NCBI RefSeq assembly: GCF_014873145.1 | Contig: NZ_JADBEK010000001.1 | Location: 11,718,001-11,782,000, forward strand | Origin: Nonomuraea angiospora | Lineage (GTDB): Bacteria; Actinomycetota; Actinomycetes; Streptosporangiales; Streptosporangiaceae | Length of the DNA stretch: 64,000 bases | Direction: 5' to 3' | Shown: piece by piece, positions 51,638 through 61,150 of the stretch | How positions within the stretch are numbered: the first letter of the stretch is position 1 | Layout: the number at the start of each line of letters is the position of its first letter | Translations under genes and position numbers: made by a program | Notes under the pieces: model-generated | Database searches by the model: none | The model's input: only the letters and a program-made list of their open reading frames with translations | What the model was told of the DNA's origin: nothing

Positions 51638-52363
51638 TCAGGCCATGGTGTCCCGCAGGAACTCGCCGAGCGTCCGGACGATCTCGCGCTCGGCGGGCTC
51701 CTTCGTCACGCCCAGCTCGCCCAGCGCCCGGGCCACCGGATCGTCGTCCAGCGACAGCACGCCCAGCAGCAGGTGCTCGGTCCCGACGAACGGGTGGCCC
51801 AGCCGCAGCGCCTCCCGCAGCGTCAGCTCCAGCGCCTTCTTGCTCTGCGCCGCGAACGCCACGGCCTCGGCCGTGGGCTCCCCGCCCGGCCCGAGCGCCG
51901 CCCTGGCGGCCTCCCCGACCGCCTCCGGCGAGGCCCCGAGCGTCACCATGGCCTTGGCGGCCAGCCCGTCCGGCTCGCTCAGCAGCCCCAGCACCAGGTG
52001 CCCCACCTCGATGTGGCCGTGCCCACCGTCCTGCGCCTCCTTCTGCGCCCGTACGACGACGCGGCGGGCCCGATCGGTGTAGCGGGCGTAGGCCCGCAGG
52101 TCCCCGGCCGGGGAGCCGCCGTCCTTGGGCACGAACCGCTTCTGCACGGCCTGCTTGCTGACCCCCATGCTGTGCCCGATGTCGGTCCAGGACGCCCCGG
52201 ACCGCCTGGCCTGGTCCACGAAGTGCCCGATCAGGTGGTCGGCCACCTCGCCGATGTGCTCACCCAGGGTCACGGCGTCGGCCAGCTCTTCCAGCGGGTC
52301 GCCGTCCGGGTGGCGGCTCTTGATCGCGTTGATGAGGTCATCGAGACGAACGATTCTGTCCAT
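51638..52363 (-). CDS. HTH and Clp N-terminal domain protein
   Basis: 241 residues. HTH at 57-77 (ASWTDIGHSMGVSKQAVQKRF), then two Clp_N repeats (about 95-241: YTDRARRVVVRAQKEAQDGGHGHIEVGHLVLGLLSE and ALELTLREALRLGHPFVGTEHLLLGVLS). There is no ATPase domain. It could be a DNA-binding protein that recruits or senses ClpC substrates. It is likely autoregulated through the palindromes in its promoter. Confidence 0.87.
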   Translation of the reverse strand: MDRIVRLDDLINAIKSRHPDGDPLEELADAVTLGEHIGEVADHLIGHFVDQARRSGASWTDIGHSMGVSKQAVQKRFVPKDGGSPAGDLRAYARYTDRARRVVVRAQKEAQDGGHGHIEVGHLVLGLLSEPDGLAAKAMVTLGASPEAVGEAARAALGPGGEPTAEAVAFAAQSKKALELTLREALRLGHPFVGTEHLLLGVLSLDDDPVARALGELGVTKEPAEREIVRTLGEFLRDTMA

Positions 52364-52364
52364 G

Positions 52365-52411
52365 CGTCAACCGTAGGTTGACGATCCACCTCCGTCAACC
52401 CTAGGTTGACG
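52365..52411 (-). promoter_or_regulatory. Promoter built into two palindromic operators
   Basis: Palindromes CGTCAACCGTAGGTTGACG (52365-52383) and CGTCAACCCTAGGTTGACG (52393-52411), centres 28 bp apart. On the reverse strand the far one supplies TTGACG (-35, 52393-52398), the near one TACGGT (-10, 52370-52375), spacing 17 bp, and the ATG follows 6 nt after the -10, so the transcript is leaderless. Confidence 0.8.
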
Positions 52412-52413
52412 GC
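52409..52413. repeat. Target-site duplication, left copy
   Basis: ACGGC directly outside the left transposon end, identical to 59625-59629. Confidence 0.9.
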
Positions 52414-52458
52414 TGAGACTCCCAGAGATAGTTGTCACATCCCAGCCATACTTGTCAC
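52414..52458 (+). repeat. Left transposon end with two TnsB-site copies
   Basis: Inverted repeat 52414-52438, then site L1 CCCAGAGATAGTTGTCAC (52421) and L2 CCCAGCCATACTTGTCAC (52441), 20 bp apart. Confidence 0.88.
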
Positions 52459-52495
52459 CAAGATCAGGTTGGCGGTGGCGTCGGGAGGCGAATCG

Positions 52496-52858
52496 GTGAC
52501 GACGGACGTGGCGGCAATGACAGAACGCGAGTACTTCGCCTTCGTGGCCAAGCGGTTGGGCATGTTCGTGGCGGGGTCGAGATTCGCTGGGGTGGAAGGG
52601 TTTCTGGACGGCTATGATCAGCACGCGCTGCGGCATGGAGGTCCTGGCCTGCGTGGCTGGCGGGAGTGGCTGGTAGCTCGGCGAGGCCAGGACTGCAACC
52701 ACGGCTGGCATGGCCAAGTGCGTCATATCGCTCTCCCTGATGGGTGGGAGCGGTGGGATCTGTCCCGCGAAGAGGAAGCCAAGGTTATCGAGGTCCTCTT
52801 CACGCTGCTGGATGAGTTTCTCGCTGAACGGGAACTGTCGACGGCGCCTGGTAACTAG
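52496..52858 (+). CDS. Small cargo protein of unknown function
   Basis: 120 residues from GTG 52496 with GGGAGG seven bases upstream; a later ATG at 52517 is possible. Soluble, Trp-rich and mostly helical: GMFVAGSRFAGVEGFLDGYDQHA, LRGWREWLVARRG, HGWHGQVRHIAL, then a C-terminal helix EEEAKVIEVLFTLLDEFLAERE. Not assigned to a named family. It is the only gene on its strand inside the left half of the transposon and ends tail to tail with tniQ: both stop codons use the palindrome CTAG at 52855-52858. Confidence 0.65.
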   Translation: MTTDVAAMTEREYFAFVAKRLGMFVAGSRFAGVEGFLDGYDQHALRHGGPGLRGWREWLVARRGQDCNHGWHGQVRHIALPDGWERWDLSREEEAKVIEVLFTLLDEFLAERELSTAPGN

Positions 52859-54471
52859 ACCATCCGGCGATAGCTTCGGGTGACAAAGAGCTGCTGGCGG
52901 GCATATTGCTGGTGGATGCCCTGGGTGGACATGCCGACGGCTGCGGCGAGCTCGGCCCAGCTCACCGGCTTGGGCAGGTTCCGTGCGATGGTGAGCGCTT
53001 CGTACTCGTCCCTGTCCAGCTCACGGAGGATGCGTTTCGTGCGTTCCATGGTGAGCTTCACGAGCGCGATCGCGATATCCGGTGTGGGGCTCGGGTCGGC
53101 GCGGGCGGCGGCCAGGGCGTCTTCCAGGGGAAGGAGTTCACCGCGTTCGTGCCAGGCCAGCGCTGCGGGGCCCGTGGCGTAGCGGTCCGTGAGCAGTTCC
53201 AGGCCGGTCAGCGGGGAGGTGGCCGATCGGGCGCGTGGAGGAGGTGGTGGTGGGTGCATGTTGCCTCGCATCGGAGTGCGTCGGAAGACCTCGGCGAGCG
53301 TGCTGGAGCGCCGTGAACTGGTGCGGATGGCGTTGGCCGTCCGCGGGTCGTGCTTGGCGCGGCCGATCAGCTCTTGGAAGGTGTCCCGGGCGCTGTCGGG
53401 GGACGGTTTGCCGAGCAGTTTGTGCGTGATGCAGAGCAGCGCGGCGCAGGCCAGGGCATCGGTCGGCGGGGCGGCCCAGGGAGAGCGGAAACCTCGCCTG
53501 GCCGCTGCCGACGAGGCGTCCGACTGTCGGAGGCGCAGCTCCACTTCGGTGTCGATCGCTGCGGCGAGCGTGCGGGAGGGACAGAGCCGCCGCGTCGCCG
53601 GCCAGGACAGCAGGATTAGGCCGGCGGTGAGGGCGGTGTCGGTGAGGTATTGCAGGGGGTCGACGGCCCGGCCCAGCACGGTGGGTGGTTCTGTCGTCGG
53701 CTGCCCGGGTTCGATGTGCTGCAGAAGCCGGGTCTGCAGCTTGAGCAGGCGGCGCAGGTCAGCGACTTCCAAGGGCGGCGTTGCCAGGTCGGTCAGTGTC
53801 GCCGCGCAGGCCGGCGTGCGTGGCCGGAGCGAGTAAGGGACCTTCTGCGGGACGGTTGCGACGGTGGCGCGGCATCGCAGGGGGTGCAGGCTCGGGTCGG
53901 TGGCCCGGCCGACCGCGCAGGGCGGGGACTGCGCGCTGGTGGTGTGTCCGCAGACGCGGCAACGGGCGACGAGGACCGTCATGTGCTCTGGGCAGATGAA
54001 GACCACCGGCAGGTGCCACTGCTTGCGCCAAGAGCCGCCGAACTCCGTCTGGACGGGACTTCCGTCGCCGGCCAGGCATTGCGGGCACCAGCGGCTGGCA
54101 GCGGTGAAGACCCACGGGGTCTCGAAGGCAGCGCGGCGGAGATCGTCAGAGGCACCCTTGCCGCGGTCGGGGAGCCGGAGAGCAGAGAAGGACCTCATCT
54201 GCAGGTTCTCTGCTTCTTGCCTGGTCAGACGGGTGCTTTCGGCGAAGACGCCGAGAGCGGAAGCATCGTCGAAGAAGGCGAGCCGGCGGCTGGGGATCTG
54301 ATGCGGAAGGTGAGCTGGGAGGCCGAGCCGCCTGACGGCCGGCATGAGCCCGGTCAGAACGGTGAGTTGTGCGGGGGAGATCTCCAGCCGGTAGGACAGC
54401 CGCAGGACATAGCCGCGCAGCGATTCGTCGGGCAGCGGGTCCAGGCTTCGGGGGAGGGGGAGAACGTCCAT
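52855..54471 (-). CDS. tniQ: TniQ-family target-selection protein
   Basis: 538 residues from ATG 54471 (upstream starts possible). The N-terminus LPLPRSLDPLPDESLRGYVLRLS is the TniQ hallmark. A zinc-binding region follows: CPQC (Cys129, Cys132), CPEH (Cys160, His163) and CRVC (Cys171, Cys174). The C-terminal half is a long variable region with an HTH-like end (SWAELAAAVGMSTQGIHQQYARQQLF). It is larger than TniQ of CRISPR-associated systems and nearer TnsD in size, fitting recognition of a DNA target site. It would recruit TnsC to the target. Confidence 0.92.
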   Translation of the reverse strand: MDVLPLPRSLDPLPDESLRGYVLRLSYRLEISPAQLTVLTGLMPAVRRLGLPAHLPHQIPSRRLAFFDDASALGVFAESTRLTRQEAENLQMRSFSALRLPDRGKGASDDLRRAAFETPWVFTAASRWCPQCLAGDGSPVQTEFGGSWRKQWHLPVVFICPEHMTVLVARCRVCGHTTSAQSPPCAVGRATDPSLHPLRCRATVATVPQKVPYSLRPRTPACAATLTDLATPPLEVADLRRLLKLQTRLLQHIEPGQPTTEPPTVLGRAVDPLQYLTDTALTAGLILLSWPATRRLCPSRTLAAAIDTEVELRLRQSDASSAAARRGFRSPWAAPPTDALACAALLCITHKLLGKPSPDSARDTFQELIGRAKHDPRTANAIRTSSRRSSTLAEVFRRTPMRGNMHPPPPPPRARSATSPLTGLELLTDRYATGPAALAWHERGELLPLEDALAAARADPSPTPDIAIALVKLTMERTKRILRELDRDEYEALTIARNLPKPVSWAELAAAVGMSTQGIHQQYARQQLFVTRSYRRMV

Positions 54472-54484
54472 GTTGTCCACTGTC

Positions 54485-55756
54485 TTAGCTCGCTGAGGAA
54501 CTGCTGGCCGGCCCACGGTCGTCGAAGACCGTGTTGCGGCCGCGCTTGTATGCCGGTGCAGGCCGGGGCGGCTGGGGGACCTCGGGGATCTCTCCGGCTT
54601 GCGGGTCGCGTCCGGGGACGTCCCGCAGGTCGATGTGAATGTCGTCGAGGAGGCTGACGGTGAGCTTCTCGGTGCCGTTGTCGATCGCGGCGGCGCATCC
54701 GTCCTCGATGAGCCGTTCCAGGAGGCCGACGACTCCCTGGGTGCGGCGGAACAGGTATTCCGGCATGTCGCCGGTGGTCAGCATGCCGGGCTCGGCGTGG
54801 AACAGGCGCAGGCAGTCTTCGAGGCCGGCCAGGTGGCTGGTCCAGGCGGCGATCCTGGCCGGGCTGTCGTAGCGGAACGGGTCGAGGTCGATCAGGTCGA
54901 AGCGCCGGTCGGTCTGCGTCCCCGCCTCGTCGTTGAAGTAGCTCTTGCCGTCTTTCCGGGGCAGGAAGCGCCATTGGCCGGAGGCCGCGTCGTAGTGCCC
55001 GCCGGTCAGCAGCCCGGATTGCCGGATGCCGACACCCACCAGGACGAGTGTGACGTTCATGCTCATCAGCCCGCGCATCAGGTCCAGCGCGTCCTGATCG
55101 GCCTCGCGGTGCATCTTCAACCGGGTCACATCGTCCAGGATCAGGACGCGCGTGCCGTGATCGCGAAGTGACGCGCGGACCAGCCGGCAGAGCTGGGGCA
55201 GGGTCGCGCCCCGAGCGATCGGAGCGCCGAAGAAGTCGAGGATGGCCTCGCAGACGCTCTTGGGCTTGGCCGTCACCGGCGTCTGCACGTAGGCGACGGG
55301 CGCGTGCAGATCACGGGTCCCCGCGACGGCATCAGGGTTGAGCTCCTGATGCAGATCGCGCAGGAAGTCCTCGAAGGCGGCCGCGCAATCGCAGACCGTC
55401 TCCGTCTTGCCCTGGAACCCGCCGCCGGAGACCATCAGGCCGGACTGCGTGCTCGCCTTGGTCTTCAACGCGTTGTTCTGCATCCGAAAGCGCATCAGCC
55501 GGTCAACGGCCGCGCTCATCGGCGTCTCCAGCAGCGGCAGATTGACGTGCGTGGCAGTGCGGTGCAAGTCATGCAGCGCCTTGCGGCGCGGGCTCAACCG
55601 GCGATAGTCGGCCAGCGTCAGCCGCGGCGCTGGCTGAAACGACGCCCGGGTGAGCCGATAACGCTGCCAGCCCGCGAGGGTCTCGCGGTCCGGCGGCTGC
55701 GTCACCGGGAGCACGAACGGGCTGACCGGCTGACCGGCAGGCTCAGGCTGGATCAT
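54485..55756 (-). CDS. tnsC: TnsC/TniB-family AAA+ ATPase
   Basis: 423 residues from ATG 55756 (GGAGGG eight bases upstream; ATG 55762 also possible), overlapping the tnsB end. Walker A GGGFQGKT (about 111-118), Walker B VLILDD (204-209), sensor region VLVGVGIRQSG. It links target-bound TniQ to the transposase and confers target immunity. The start of tniQ lies 13 bp after its stop. Confidence 0.92.
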   Translation of the reverse strand: MIQPEPAGQPVSPFVLPVTQPPDRETLAGWQRYRLTRASFQPAPRLTLADYRRLSPRRKALHDLHRTATHVNLPLLETPMSAAVDRLMRFRMQNNALKTKASTQSGLMVSGGGFQGKTETVCDCAAAFEDFLRDLHQELNPDAVAGTRDLHAPVAYVQTPVTAKPKSVCEAILDFFGAPIARGATLPQLCRLVRASLRDHGTRVLILDDVTRLKMHREADQDALDLMRGLMSMNVTLVLVGVGIRQSGLLTGGHYDAASGQWRFLPRKDGKSYFNDEAGTQTDRRFDLIDLDPFRYDSPARIAAWTSHLAGLEDCLRLFHAEPGMLTTGDMPEYLFRRTQGVVGLLERLIEDGCAAAIDNGTEKLTVSLLDDIHIDLRDVPGRDPQAGEIPEVPQPPRPAPAYKRGRNTVFDDRGPASSSSAS

Positions 55757-57989
55757 GCTCATCGCCCTCCGGATCCTCCGTCTCGTCGGCGGCGGGAAGC
55801 AGGAACAGATTGCCCCGCCGGTAGCTGTCTCCCAGGCGGCCGGGCAGGTTCGGCTTCTCGGCTGTTGTGGCCTCCCGTCGACGCCGCCGTTCGGCATCGA
55901 CCGCCTGAACTGCCTGAACGGGACGCGGTGCGGCGGGCAGGGCCGTCACAGTGTTCTCCGTCGGCCGCTCTTGACCAGCGGCGGCCGGGGGCCGGTCCGC
56001 GGCTGCGGCCTGTCCTTGCAAGGCTTCGCGCGCGTGCTCGGCCCGCTTCTTCTTCGGCATCTGCGTCGGCCAGGAGGCCACCGGGATGAGGCCGCCGATG
56101 AGTTCCAGCAGCACCGGCAGCAACTCGGCGTCGGACCGGGGGGCCAGCCCTGCCCGTTTGGCCTCCCGCAGCAGCTCGGTGACCCGGGCGTCGCCGAAGC
56201 AGGGCACCTCCCCCTCCGGTGGCAGCCCGGTCCACCGCAGCGTGTGCCACTCCTCGGTGCGTGGATCTTGGAAGAAGGTGTAGCGCCGATCGCGAGGATC
56301 ACGGCGGATCACCCAGCCGCGCTTGTGCCGGCCGCCCCTGGCAGAGGGCTGGTTGCGGAAGTCGTCCAGGGCTGGATCGTCATAGAACAGGCCGCGGACC
56401 TTCACCCCGCGCCCCGGGTCGATGCGCCGGACGTAAGTGATGGGCAGCAGCTCGAAGAACAACTCCGGGGCGGGGATCTGCATCGCGAACCCGCCCTGGC
56501 CCATGGCCACCGCCATCAGGCTGTTGGGGCTGTGCTCCTCGCCCGGCCCCCACGCGGGGGCGTGACCGCCGAGTTTGCGGTTCTGCCAGACCTTCACGAT
56601 CCAGGTGGCGATCTCGTGTTCCATCTGCTCGATGGTCAGCACCGCGTCCCCTTCGGGATCGGATCCGCGGTCGGCGACGTCGACGCCGGTGTAACCGAGC
56701 AGCCGCTCGAACAGCAGCGACCGGAACGCGCCGAAGGCCCGCTCGATGGCCTGCTTGTCCGTCGGCCGCAGCACCCTCGACGGCAGGATGTTCGTCCCGA
56801 TCACACGCTGGACCTCCACCAAGTGGTGGTTGCGATAGACCGACCCGTGATCAGTGGTCACCGTCTCCGGCGTGAAGAACGGCAGCGCGGCCACCTTGTG
56901 CCCGGCGAACTCCGCCACCACCGTGGCCGGCAACCCCGGATAGGGCCACTCCAGCTCCTCGCCCCAATCCTCCCGCAGCGGCAGAGGCATCATCATGTCG
57001 CGCAGCAACATCGCGACATCGATCGAGGAGTCGGAGACCAGCGTCAGCCGGAACGCCACCGCCGAATGCGTGTAGGCGTCCAGACCCGTGGTCAGATGCA
57101 CCGACACCGGTTCGCCGAACACGCCGTCCAGCACCTTCACCGGCAAGATCGTGGTGTCCAGGACCACCACCTGCCCCGGCCGGTGCACGACCACGTGCTG
57201 CCCGGATGCCTTGAGTGAGGAGGCGGCATAGCGCTGACGCGCCCCGCCGGGCCCAAACAGCTCCTTCCAGACCAGCCGCAGCGTCTCCCGGGCGGGCACC
57301 GGAATCTGCGGGCCGTGCTTCTCCAGGACCAGCTGGCGCAGCAGCACCTCGCGCGAGGCCATGCTCATCCGCGAGCGCCGCAGCGACTCCTGCCGAACCT
57401 CATAGATCGCTTCCAAGACCAGATCGCTGACGCTGGGATGACCGCCTCCCGGCCGCAGCCACCGGCCGTCCGCGCAACCCAGCGCGCCCAGACGCCGCTT
57501 GCGGACCTCCCACCTGATCAACGTCCGGTAGCCGACCTTGTGCAAGGCCAGCAGCCGGGCGTGCTCACGATCGAGCGCGCGCAGCTCGGCGACCTTCGCG
57601 TGGCGCCGCTGGGTGAGCGTGGTGGCCGCCGGATCGTAGGCCGGCTTCGGCTCACCCGGGCCGGGGCGGGTGGGATCGCCGCCGCGAAACCCGGTTTCGA
57701 CCTCGAGCAGGTGCGCCATCCGCAAGGCGACCAGGTCCTGCTGATGAGGTGTCAGATCGTCGAGCACGGCCGGCTGACGGCTGCCCTGGGCCGGCGATCC
57801 CACCGCCTCAGGTTCGGGCCCGAAGCCGGCGTGCGTGAGCAGATACCGGATGTTCGTGCGCTCCCGCAGCCCGTTCTCGCTCATCAGCACGACCCGACTG
57901 TGCTGAGGTTCGAGCTGGTCGACCACCCAGCGCATGCCGTGCATCTCCACGTCGGAGCCGACCGCAAGGTTCAGTAATCCCGCACTCAT
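55743..57989 (-). CDS. tnsB: TnsB/TniA-family DDE transposase
   Basis: 748 residues; ATG overlaps the tnsA stop (ATGA). N-terminal HTH regions bind the end repeats; the catalytic core has Asp about 278 (VVVLDTTIL), Asp about 376 (TTDHGSVYRNHH) and Glu about 415 (KQAIERAFGAF), then a Mu-transposase C-terminal barrel and a polar tail that would contact TnsC. It cuts the 3' ends and joins them to the target. Confidence 0.94.
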   Translation of the reverse strand: MSAGLLNLAVGSDVEMHGMRWVVDQLEPQHSRVVLMSENGLRERTNIRYLLTHAGFGPEPEAVGSPAQGSRQPAVLDDLTPHQQDLVALRMAHLLEVETGFRGGDPTRPGPGEPKPAYDPAATTLTQRRHAKVAELRALDREHARLLALHKVGYRTLIRWEVRKRRLGALGCADGRWLRPGGGHPSVSDLVLEAIYEVRQESLRRSRMSMASREVLLRQLVLEKHGPQIPVPARETLRLVWKELFGPGGARQRYAASSLKASGQHVVVHRPGQVVVLDTTILPVKVLDGVFGEPVSVHLTTGLDAYTHSAVAFRLTLVSDSSIDVAMLLRDMMMPLPLREDWGEELEWPYPGLPATVVAEFAGHKVAALPFFTPETVTTDHGSVYRNHHLVEVQRVIGTNILPSRVLRPTDKQAIERAFGAFRSLLFERLLGYTGVDVADRGSDPEGDAVLTIEQMEHEIATWIVKVWQNRKLGGHAPAWGPGEEHSPNSLMAVAMGQGGFAMQIPAPELFFELLPITYVRRIDPGRGVKVRGLFYDDPALDDFRNQPSARGGRHKRGWVIRRDPRDRRYTFFQDPRTEEWHTLRWTGLPPEGEVPCFGDARVTELLREAKRAGLAPRSDAELLPVLLELIGGLIPVASWPTQMPKKKRAEHAREALQGQAAAADRPPAAAGQERPTENTVTALPAAPRPVQAVQAVDAERRRRREATTAEKPNLPGRLGDSYRRGNLFLLPAADETEDPEGDEHDPA

Positions 57990-58828
57990 CGCCCGGCCTC
58001 CTCGGCGGGGTAAACGATCGAGTCGTCGGTAAGCGGGCAGACCAGGTCAACACCTGCCCGCCGCCACCACAACAGGTGCAGTAGCTGAGCGCGAGCGACA
58101 GCCGAAGCGACCGTGCCGGCCACCAGCGTGCCGAACGAGCAGGGCCCAGACCGCAGCCTGTCCAGCAGAAGCGGCCGCAGCTTCAACGGATCAGACGACG
58201 ACCGGCGCTGGGAGGAAATACCGTCCAGCGTCGTCATCACCTGCTGCCGCCAGCCGGCCACCACCAGATACCGCCATCCACAGGCCAACGCGACCTCCGC
58301 CGTGGCGGCGAACTTGACCCGGTCGTCCGGACCGATCCGGCCCTGGGGACGCACATCGATCAGCCACGTCCCCGACCTCGTGACCGCCAGGACATCCGGG
58401 GCATGCTTCGCAGGGCCCTCTGGCGTGGCGAAGTGCAACCAGAACGGCTGACACAACAGCGTGGTGATCCCGCCCAGGAAGTCCAGCGCCAGCAGGAGCT
58501 TGGCCTCCTCTAGACTCTCGAACCCCACCTGCAGGCCCGTACTGACCATGTAGGCCAGCCCGGGCCGGTGTCGTTGCCCTGTCCGCCAGGTGAACCGGCG
58601 CGCCGGCTCGGCCCGGCGCACCTCGAACGAGGTCATGTCACGGACGGGGCAGACCACCTCTGTGCTGTTGACCTGCCACGACGTCGTCCATCTCCGAGAC
58701 CAGTCCGGGCTCATGCTCCAGCCCAGCTCGGCCCAGGACACCGCCCCGGGATCTCCGATGATCAGGTCCAGGAGATCACAGCAATGCGAGAGAACCTCGC
58801 GTGTGTCACACCGTCCCAGCGGCACCAT
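57986..58828 (-). CDS. tnsA: TnsA-like transposase endonuclease subunit
   Basis: 280 residues. The PD-(D/E)XK-like core: FESLEEAKLLLALDF (Glu about 104-108), KHAPDVLAV (Asp145) and WLIDVRPQ (Asp158, Arg160 where Tn7 TnsA has Lys). TnsA cleaves the 5' ends, so with TnsB the element moves by cut and paste. TACCGT stands 6 nt before the ATG, making this the leaderless first gene of the operon. Confidence 0.85.
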   Translation of the reverse strand: MVPLGRCDTREVLSHCCDLLDLIIGDPGAVSWAELGWSMSPDWSRRWTTSWQVNSTEVVCPVRDMTSFEVRRAEPARRFTWRTGQRHRPGLAYMVSTGLQVGFESLEEAKLLLALDFLGGITTLLCQPFWLHFATPEGPAKHAPDVLAVTRSGTWLIDVRPQGRIGPDDRVKFAATAEVALACGWRYLVVAGWRQQVMTTLDGISSQRRSSSDPLKLRPLLLDRLRSGPCSFGTLVAGTVASAVARAQLLHLLWWRRAGVDLVCPLTDDSIVYPAEEAGR

Positions 58829-58834
58829 CGCACC

Positions 58835-58840
58835 ACGGTA
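58835..58840 (-). promoter_or_regulatory. -10 box of the leaderless tnsABC-tniQ operon
   Basis: TACCGT on the reverse strand, 6 nt before the tnsA ATG at 58828. No clear -35. Confidence 0.45.
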
Positions 58841-58940
58841 GGAATCGCGTTATGTGCAGCTCTATATACGCAGAGCAACACTTCTGTGTCCTAGATGATC
58901 AATTCCAAGGGGTGCCTGCCGAGGGTGTGGGGGTGGGCGG

Positions 58941-59330
58941 TCAGGCGTCGGGGTCGACTTCGGGGTGCGTAAACCGCACGGGCTTGCCCAGCGACCGGGC
59001 GTAGGCGATTTCGGCTCGGGTGCTGTCTCCGATGTAGTCGCCGACTACGAACACCTCATCAGCGAGCCGGATCTTCGCGAGGTGCAGATCGTCGAGTCGA
59101 ACCTTCAGCGCCTCGGCCTCGACAGGATCGGACCAAAGTTCGTGCGGCGACTTCATGTCGCAACCCGGCTTGACGACAATCTTCCCGGCTTTGGTCTCCC
59201 GCAGATCGGCCTCGGTCATCTCGGTCATGAAGCGGGTGGAGCCGCAGATCACGACGATACGCGGGAGGCTCAGCTGCTTCTTCGCGTCGGCGAGTTTCTC
59301 CTCGGGGGTGAGCTGTTGCGGGTATGACAC
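58941..59330 (-). CDS. Nucleoside 2-deoxyribosyltransferase-like protein
   Basis: 129 residues from GTG 59330 with AGGAGGA upstream. Rossmann-like fold: VVICGSTRF at the start, ADEVFVVGDYIGDSTRAEIAYARSLGKPVRF near the end, the pattern of DUF4406/nucleoside 2-deoxyribosyltransferase-type proteins (D-E-V-x-V-V then S-x-x-A-E-I-A-Y-A). It may bind or cleave a nucleoside or nucleotide; catalysis is unproven. Sits as a passenger in the IS relic inside the transposon. Confidence 0.75.
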   Translation of the reverse strand: MSYPQQLTPEEKLADAKKQLSLPRIVVICGSTRFMTEMTEADLRETKAGKIVVKPGCDMKSPHELWSDPVEAEALKVRLDDLHLAKIRLADEVFVVGDYIGDSTRAEIAYARSLGKPVRFTHPEVDPDA

Positions 59331-59368
59331 TGGTTCCTCCTGGTGATGTGGTCCAAGGGGTGCCTGCG

Positions 59369-59455
59369 GAGACGAACGCGCTGACCGCCGCGATCTGGCA
59401 CAACGACGCCACCGGACCAACCGTCCTACGCTCACTGATCGCCTACGATCACTGA
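59369..59455 (+). pseudogene. C-terminal remnant of an IS transposase
   Basis: In-frame tail reading LTAAIWHND, then LRSLIAYDH and stop, the typical end of DDE transposases of IS5/IS982-like elements. No start or catalytic core remains. Family assignment is tentative. Confidence 0.65.
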
Positions 59456-59490
59456 CCTCTTGGAATAGATCATCTAGCGCGATGCTCAAG

Positions 59491-59624
59491 GTGACAACTA
59501 CCGCAAGCAGCTTGGCGCAGGTGACGGATACCCCCGGGAAGAAGTGACAGATACCTCTGGGCAAGGGGGTGCCGGAGGGCTGTACGCGATGGATACTCAG
59601 TGACAGTTATCGCTGGCAGTCACA
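59491..59624 (-). repeat. Right transposon end with four TnsB-site copies
   Basis: Read outside-in on the reverse strand: R1 at 59600-59616 (CCAGCGATAACTGTCAC), R2 at 59544-59561 (CCCAGAGGTATCTGTCAC), R3 at 59521-59538 (CCCGGGGGTATCCGTCAC), R4 at 59491-59507 (GCGGTAGTTGTCAC). The inverted repeat is 59600-59624. Confidence 0.88.
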
Positions 59625-59629
59625 ACGGC
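59625..59629. repeat. Target-site duplication, right copy
   Basis: ACGGC directly outside the right transposon end; the remaining 45 bp to the glpK stop contain nothing else recognisable. Confidence 0.9.
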
Positions 59630-59674: not shown

Positions 59675-61150
59675 CTAGCGCCGGGAGCCAGACGCTTCCC
59701 GGGAGGTCAGCTCGACGGCGGCCCGCCAGCGCTCGTAGGCGGCGTCGTCCCGCGGGCCGGGCTCGAAGCGGCGTTCGAGCTGCCACGTGTGGCGCAGCTC
59801 GGTCCGCGAGCCCCACACGCCCGCTCCCAGCCCGGCCAGGAAGGCGGCGCCGAGGGCGGTGGTCTCCTGGATCACCGGGCGCTCCACCGCCGCCCCGAGC
59901 TGGTCGGCCTGGAGCTGCATGAGCAGGTCGTTCGAGCTGGCCCCGCCGTCGGCCTTGAGCACCGGTACGGCGCCCCCGGTCATCACCTCCACCACGTCCC
60001 GCACCTCGAACGCGATCGCCTCCAGCGTGGCCCTGACCAGGTGTGCCCGCGTCGTGCCCCGCGTGATGCCGGTGATCAGCCCGCGCGCGCCGGGGTCCCA
60101 GTGCGGCGCCCCGAGCCCCGTCAGAGCCGGGACGAACACCACGCCCCCGCTGTCGGGCACCGTGCGCGCCACGGCCTCGGACTCCGGCGCCGTGCCGATC
60201 AGCCCCAGCCCGTCGCGCAGCCACTGCACGGCGGCCCCGGTCACGAAGATCGACCCCTCCAGCGCGAACGTGCGCTCGCCCGCCGGCGTCTGCCAGGCCA
60301 CGGTGGTCAGCAGCCCCTTGTCGGAACGGACGATCTCCCCGCCGAGGTTGGCCAGCACGAACGAGCCCGTGCCGTAGGTGCACTTGACGTCCCCCACGTC
60401 GAAGCACGTCTGCCCGAACAGCGCCGCCTGCTGGTCGCCGGCCACCCCGCTGATCGGCAGCTCCAGCCCGAGGAAGGCGGCCGGCTCCGTGAGCCCCAGC
60501 GGCCCGTAGTTGGGCACGATCTCGGGCAGGGCCTCCATGGGCACCCCGAACAGCTCGCACAGCTCCGGCTCCCAGCCGCCGGAGGCGAGGCCGTACAGGA
60601 GGGTGCGCGAGGCGTTGGACGGGTCGGTCACGTGCCGCGCGCCCGCCGTGAGCCTGGCGATGAGGTAGGAGTCGACCGTCCCGACGGCGATGTTCCCGGA
60701 CCGGATGCCCGCCCACGTGCTCTCGTCGTGCTCGGCGAGCCACGTCAGCTTCGTCGCGGTGAAGTACGGGTCGAGCCGCAGCCCGGTCAGCTCCGACACG
60801 CGCGGCTCGTGGCCCGCCTCGCGCAGCCGGTCGCAGATCCCGGCCGTGCGCCGGTCCTGCCACACGATGGCCCGGCACGGCGCCGCCAGTGTGTGCCGGT
60901 CCCACAGCACGGCGGTCTCGCGCTGGTTGGTGATGCCGACGCAGGACGGGGAGACGGAGGCTCCGCTCAGCGCGGTGCCGCACGCGGAGAGCGTGGCCTG
61001 CCAGATGTCTTCGGGATTGTGCTCCACCCATCCGGGGGAAGGAAAGTGCTGTGCGAACTCCTCGTAGCCCTTGGACTCGATTTGTCCGTTTTCTGTGACT
61101 ACGAGAGCAGTCACGCCCGTCGTCCCGGCGTCAATGGCCAACACACTCAC
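59675..61150 (-). CDS. glpK: Glycerol kinase
   Basis: 491 residues from GTG 61150. FGGY kinase: AIDAGTTGVTALVV, NQRETAVLWDRHT, FTATKLTWL, GVAGDQQAALFGQ, TYGTGSFVLAN and KADGGASSNDLLMQLQAD signatures. Phosphorylates glycerol to sn-glycerol 3-phosphate. No glpF or glpD adjacent. Divergent from pfkA across a dre site. Confidence 0.94.
   Translation of the reverse strand: MSVLAIDAGTTGVTALVVTENGQIESKGYEEFAQHFPSPGWVEHNPEDIWQATLSACGTALSGASVSPSCVGITNQRETAVLWDRHTLAAPCRAIVWQDRRTAGICDRLREAGHEPRVSELTGLRLDPYFTATKLTWLAEHDESTWAGIRSGNIAVGTVDSYLIARLTAGARHVTDPSNASRTLLYGLASGGWEPELCELFGVPMEALPEIVPNYGPLGLTEPAAFLGLELPISGVAGDQQAALFGQTCFDVGDVKCTYGTGSFVLANLGGEIVRSDKGLLTTVAWQTPAGERTFALEGSIFVTGAAVQWLRDGLGLIGTAPESEAVARTVPDSGGVVFVPALTGLGAPHWDPGARGLITGITRGTTRAHLVRATLEAIAFEVRDVVEVMTGGAVPVLKADGGASSNDLLMQLQADQLGAAVERPVIQETTALGAAFLAGLGAGVWGSRTELRHTWQLERRFEPGPRDDAAYERWRAAVELTSREASGSRR

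Follow-up and report, generated by a model that had tools for sequence, protein, structure and literature searches.

Transposons related to Tn7 are known to choose sites at which the host is spared; examples are positions downstream of tRNA genes and at the end of glmS. Tn7 itself, which consists of TnsABC plus TnsD, occupies attTn7 downstream of glmS; its tnsA-side end faces the target and lies past the stop codon of the gene, and the tns genes and glmS are read in the same direction. Here we describe a Tn7-like element of 7,211 bp (positions 52414..59624) in a 64,000-nucleotide stretch of DNA from Nonomuraea angiospora, referred to below as the window. We propose that this element occupies a programmed site, namely the promoter of the Clp_N/HTH (helix-turn-helix) gene next to it, a reading to which we assign a probability of close to 0.9 and which an earlier sequence-only reading of the window had missed.

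The element resembles Tn7 in its gene order (tnsA-tnsB-tnsC-tniQ/tnsD), in its arrays of TnsB-type sites, in a 5-bp target duplication, and in the use of a dedicated site. In contrast to Tn7, the element targets the promoter/operator in front of a gene rather than the 3′ end of glmS, and the end that faces the target is the tniQ-side end. Tn7 proper is recognized by insertion downstream of glmS; here the neighbours are the Clp_N/HTH promoter on the left and glpK on the right. No TnsE and no cas gene was matched when six open reading frames (ORFs) of the element were searched in Pfam, and no CRISPR array was found among the 20 repeat families listed, no dedicated array search having been made. 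Unlike transposons of the Tn5053/Tn402 type, which are without TnsA, the window element has tnsA.

The element is also similar to an Actinobacteria-dominated clade of Tn7-like transposons (PMC8649781) in that its hosts are actinobacteria and its TnsA matches the actinobacterial family NF033179. In the portion of Benler et al. 2021 (PMC8649781) available to us, no member of this clade is experimentally characterized and a promoter site is unmentioned. The available text of Faure et al. 2023 (PMC10293859) describes TniQ/TnsD proteins as modular and as occurring singly in 2,905 loci, and suggests that their C-terminal regions might recognise the site; in its main text the words “operator” and “Actinobacteria” are absent, and the single “promoter” refers to an expression plasmid. 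A limited literature search, covering titles and the starts of abstracts without supplements or subscription papers, found no report of a promoter or operator as the homing site of a Tn7-like element. A literature search on the target gene returned nothing informative.

The junction at the Clp_N/HTH promoter

The target gene lies on the minus strand (51638..52363) and encodes a 241-amino-acid (aa) protein with a Clp_N domain and a weak, below-cut-off match to HTH_AsnC. Between this gene and the element is the attachment region (52364..52413, minus strand), which contains two GTCAACC-NNN-GGTTGAC boxes and reads TTGACG - 17 nt - TACGGT - 6 nt - ATG. For comparison, 33 Clp_N loci were assembled: the 30 best Clp_N matches in 54 genomes of the same genus, six further matches at 58–68% identity being left out, together with G179, G172, and G163, which were added because an element had been seen there. 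The promoter layout recurs in 31 of the 33 loci as TTGAC(G/C), a spacer of 17 (25 loci) or 18 bases (6 loci), and TANNNT, the last followed by the start codon after 6 (29 loci) or 7 bases (2 loci). Because of this recurrence, we read the half-boxes as the −35 and −10 elements of a promoter, which looks like one of the sigma-70 type. The transcript is probably leaderless. The doubled palindrome resembles an operator, and the HTH product of the gene itself may bind it.

In the window, G179, and G172, the tniQ-side end of the element abuts the doubled box, its tip starting 2–4 bases past the second TTGAC. All 33 loci were scored for the tip over 25 positions, against a null of 1,188 windows taken 40–300 bp further on. 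A score of at least 16 was reached at seven loci, G000 (the window), G065, G011, G018, G179, G163, and G172, compared with two of the 1,188 nearby windows; a score of at least 19 was reached at six loci and in none of the null windows. Four of the seven tips belong to the reference set, which gives them a score of 25 by design, while those outside it score 19 (G018), 19 (G011), and 16 (G172). The remaining 26 loci score 13 or less. All seven tips begin at an offset of 2–4 after the TTGAC of the second box, and in 7/7 cases the element stops 14–16 bp short of the −35. Among the 30 same-genus loci the tip is carried by four, two of them decayed. Two further loci were considered as carriers and not counted: G023 retains a TniQ-like remnant of 33 residues, some 1 kb away from the Clp_N gene, but has no tip, and G061 has a junction that is tip-like by eye but scores 12, within the null.

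Two relatives with both ends define the junction in other genera. G179, from another genus of the same family, has a tnsA 86%, a tnsC 85%, and a tniQ 70–75% identical to those of the window. Its left tip, TGAGACTGCCAGAGATAGTTGTCAC, directly follows ...GTTGACGATC, and its right end, 76% identical to that of the window over 151 bp, finishes in ...GGTCACA and is followed by CGATC, which forms a clean 5-bp duplication. This copy is defective, its tnsB being without residues of about 223–683 and its tniQ split in two. G172, from a third genus, is more distant (tnsB 57% and tniQ 32% identical); its tip, TGTGCCTCCCGCCGATAG, follows ...GGTTGACCG, and its right end, ...GGAGGCACA, is followed by GACCG. 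The same junction is thus found in three genera, each time with its own perfect 5-bp duplication (ACGGC, CGATC, and GACCG). The orientation of the element recurs along with its position. Random insertion into a neighbourhood meaningful in appearance only is barely credible against the recurrence of the same junction, within 3 bp, at seven loci in four genera; what speaks for it is that the ends and duplication alone, in one window, are at chance level (see below).

A search for the box followed by the tip matched four of 341 genomes of the family (G000, G065, G172, and G163), with none in the reversed control. This search misses G179 because the box of G179 reads AGTTGAC.

The right-hand neighbour of the element offers a different attachment site. 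The glycerol kinase gene glpK (NCBIfam; 59675..61144, minus strand, start set by us) ends about 50 bp from the tnsA-side end, which lies past its stop codon, and is read in the same direction as the tns genes, so that its 3′ end could serve as glmS does for Tn7 and the Clp_N gene would be incidental. However, the elements of G179 and G172 adjoin the Clp_N gene, and the stretches fetched for them contain no glpK match; the decayed copies of G065 and G011 are likewise without glpK in the 18–20 kb fetched. On these grounds glpK was rejected as the attachment gene, and we consider this alternative very improbable. The tnsA-side neighbour is, on this comparison, not conserved; it is incidental and not part of the rule.

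Less complete copies were also observed. In G065, a left end and right-end sites lie about 3.1 kb apart with no tns match. In G163, from a fourth genus, only a left end, with TnsB-type sites, is found at the Clp_N promoter (L105, 6600–6800), and nothing in the 18-kb contig matches a tns gene. A related element in L031 (G008) has tnsB and tnsA each split between two frames and a tnsC match of just 90 residues. No target was assigned for the copies L005, L008, G020, G104, and G295, which are on short contigs or have ends that were not found.

Reading of the site and related insertion sites

In our proposal, a TnsA/TnsB/TnsC/TniQ transposon of the actinobacterial Tn7-like type would move by site-directed transposition, and its attachment site, a part of the proposal that we hold very probable, would be the doubled operator-like box and promoter of the Clp_N/HTH regulator gene. 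TniQ, probably via its C-terminal extension, would bind either the promoter boxes or the opening codons of the gene and would recruit TnsC, which would form a bridge that sets TnsAB at a fixed distance with the tniQ-side end nearest. That end would be joined 2–4 bases beyond the second box, and strand transfer would create the 5-bp duplication. Because the joining point would lie 14–16 bp upstream of the −35, the target gene would retain its whole core promoter. Stopping a few bases short of a promoter, with operator boxes and core promoter whole, would be another way of sparing the host. A natural site-directed insertion system for actinomycetes, with a short, defined target DNA, could result, and a simple question is opened: does the operator alone suffice to call the transposon?

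That TniQ itself reads the promoter site seems rather probable, with less assurance than the site. The TniQ of the window contains an HTH-like stretch, SWAELAAAVGMSTQGIHQQY, which can be set beside that of the target protein, SWTDIGHSMGVSKQAVQKRF: 5 of 20 positions are identical and 14 of 20 similar, with an E value of 0.03 for this single comparison and a profile probability of 22%. The resemblance is weak and may be taken as a hint only.

Five Streptomyces loci (L002, L003, L004, L006, and L007), whose TnsB is about 60% identical to that of the window, have a similar tip, similar sites, and 5-bp duplications (ACGGC, GGCCG, CGGGG, ATCGG, and CGGAT), and likewise have the tniQ-side end at a constant spacing from a palindrome of the autoregulator type. 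They differ in that the palindrome precedes a gene for an XRE regulator (in L002, a match to HTH_3 at 8.7e-16), the tniQ-side end lies 40–42 bases before CTTGCAANAGTTAG, the second half of the palindrome, and TniQ is about 34% identical; the elements of L003, L004, L006, and L007 are larger than that of the window. In the genus of G056, 14 of 343 genomes have GTCACA ahead of the CTTGCAANAGTTAG motif, with none in the control. All 14 have a gap of 40–43 bases within a search range of 32–46, an XRE-type start lies behind the motif in 14/14, and a further half-site, GACA, lies exactly 13 bases before it in 9/14. These matches were counted by motif alone, and some may be chance or decayed. In L002, at about 1640–1680, the right end of the element adjoins an end of a second one and the two share ACGGC, so that insertions are stacked there at a single site.

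Other relatives lie elsewhere. The left end of G228 is 225 bases upstream of a gene read as sugar-binding-protein-like, its right end and duplication not having been found, and left-end repeats of G035 are at the 3′ end of a gene read as pyridoxamine-oxidase-like. Promoters are therefore not the sole targets.

The same promoter could instead be read by a host protein, for instance RNA polymerase or the autoregulator of the gene, that TniQ or TnsC contacts; this overlaps with our explanation and differs from it in the reader alone. Consistent with a host reader, two TniQ proteins with C-termini that are not convincingly alignable, those of the window and G172, use the same promoter. In addition, Streptomyces relatives whose TniQs are shorter (411 aa for the L004 ORF) keep a fixed spacing to the palindrome of another regulator. 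The trees bear on the same point. In the FastTree tree of TniQ, the window/G179 pair groups with G228 (support 0.998) and G172 stands apart; in that of TnsC, window/G179 and G172 are not sisters; in those of TnsA and TnsB, the placement of G172 is poorly supported. This separation in the TniQ and TnsC trees implies either two arrivals at the site or a reader that both have in common. On the other hand, the G035 relative is at what looks like a gene 3′ end, and TnsD of Tn7 binds its own site, the end of glmS, by itself, as stated in the available part of PMC2918618. We consider a host reader unlikely.

Several observations count against reading by TniQ at a programmed promoter site. The TniQ of G172 uses the same site with a differing C-terminus, so that the site could be read by a host factor, by differing modules, or by the core of TniQ, and the C-terminal extension of the window TniQ is modelled at low confidence. 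The site is uncommonly occupied, 26 of the 30 genus loci being without a recognisable tip. A looser, class-wide pattern gave two matches in 394 genomes, both from already-known members of the family, and three in the reversed control; this sample included neither G179, G065, nor G163. At the decayed copy of G018, glpK remains on the same side at a distance of about 3 kb, so that an ancestral neighbourhood is indistinguishable from targeting at that locus. Finally, both TniQ binding and promoter-directed transposition are what we infer from sequence comparison.

A more general, tentative proposal, which we regard as possible though not probable, is that an actinobacterial branch of Tn7-like elements homes to the promoters of autoregulated regulators, with the operator as attachment site and a stop just outside the core promoter. 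Different branches would use different operators, and two TniQ lineages would have converged on one, perhaps via DNA-binding modules like those of host repressors.

Ends, genes, and cargo of the element

The 25-bp terminal inverted repeats (20/25 matching positions) and flanking ACGGC duplication of the sequence-only reading hold in their coordinates. The left tip (52414–52438) is TGAGACTCCCAGAGATAGTTGTCAC, and the right tip, the reverse complement of 59600–59624, is TGTGACTGCCAGCGATAACTGTCAC. The left copy of ACGGC (52409..52413, plus strand) overlaps the TTGAC of the second box, whose final two bases are also its first two; the right copy is at 59625..59629 (plus strand). The left, tniQ-side and target-proximal end (52414..52458, plus strand) comprises the tip repeat and a second TnsB-type site, the two sites being at about 52421–52438 and 52441–52458, an arrangement found also in G179. 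The right, tnsA-side end (59491..59624, minus strand) has four such sites, at about 59600–59617, 59544–59561, 59521–59538, and 59491–59508. Counting the tip sites, the left end thus has two CCAGNGATANNTGTCAC-like copies and the right end four, arrays that would be as expected for TnsB sites.

Inverted ends and a duplication are not stand-alone proof of an element. The whole window was scanned for perfect 5-bp duplications with inverted ends matching at 18 or more of 25 positions and a spacing of 0.5–15 kb, as were five random sequences with the dinucleotide make-up of the window. The window contained 102 such pairs, compared with 17–30 per random sequence, and the pair at the element ends is its single best and the sole one scoring 20; yet three of the five random sequences also had a pair at 20. 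Since the ends and duplication alone reach chance level, the boundaries rest on the genes, the arrays of TnsB-type sites, and the relatives, and are secured by the extra sites and by G179, with its aligning tips and its own duplication. The claim of a complete Tn7-like element stands on this comparative proof, relatives having 5-bp duplications of their own.

The four core genes named in the sequence-only reading were recovered by profile and structure matches as four intact open frames on the minus strand. The product of tnsA (57986..58828, 280 aa) matches NF033179 (TnsA_like_Actin) at 126.1 bits, the cut-off being 110. E104 and D145 are conserved, and the third active-site position is arginine in 16/16 near rows of the alignment (the window included; 15 distinct places) and lysine in 6 of 9 distant rows. 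As TnsA has arginine where we take Tn7 to have lysine, cut-and-paste transposition driven by TnsA remains an expectation. The tnsB gene (55743..57989) encodes a DDE-type transposase of 748 aa that matches solved TnsB chains at an E value of 1.4e-9 and rve weakly, below cut-off. Residues D278, D380, and E416 are conserved in at least 95% of 23–24 aligned rows, and we read them as the catalytic triad. The tnsC gene (54485..55897, 470 aa as listed) encodes an AAA/TniB-like ATPase matching PF05621 (TniB, 6.9e-10) and PF13401 (AAA_22, 7e-8); we judge an ATG at about 55762 to be its likelier start.

The tniQ gene (52855..54516, 553 aa as listed) encodes a TnsD-like protein matching PF06527 (TniQ) at 2.9e-23. 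Its likelier start is at about 54471, giving 538 aa as in P0001, the 97% identical TniQ of Nonomuraea sp. NPDC003707. The model of TniQ, built from a 40-row alignment (A1), has a mean predicted local distance difference test (pLDDT) score of 75.3; the top solved match to it is TnsD in a TnsD-TnsC-DNA complex (E value 1.9e-3), with no match at 1e-3 or below. A PDB sequence search with TniQ gave nothing informative. The C-terminal extension (about 417–553), in which the HTH-like stretch lies, is helical in its low-confidence model, and the model of this region is too poor for naming a fold.

Next to the left end, a cargo ORF of 120 aa (52496..52858, plus strand) belongs to an unnamed protein family that is widespread in actinobacteria; among its 89 homologues, the best 98% identical, none has a telling name. 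A nested piece of about 0.6 kb (58891..59477), not present in G179, has 23-nt inverted ends (91%) that include CTAG at both edges, and an 80-base part of it matches four other places in the genome at 79–80%. It looks like a remnant of an insertion sequence (IS), an IS internally replaced. Its small ORF (58941–59330, minus strand) we read as possibly nucleoside-deoxyribosyltransferase-like. For the two cargo ORFs, Pfam returned no match for one and a weak, below-cut-off match to DUF7768 for the other, and PADLOC returned nothing useful.

Loci without the element

The sequence-only reading had suggested looking in related genomes for an empty site at which the flanks are joined. Flanks joined in this general sense do occur: of the 29 further loci fetched from the genus, 11 have glpK and the Clp_N gene within about 150 bp of each other and no element between them. 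A base-for-base empty site was not found in a close relative, as the nearest, G010 (flanking genes 93% and 97% identical), is without the element but has about 2.5 kb of other genes in its place. By reading of the ORFs, these comprise a methyltransferase-like gene and two regulator-like genes (L066, 8235–10700). G018 and G071 have some 3 and 6 kb, respectively, in the same intergenic region.

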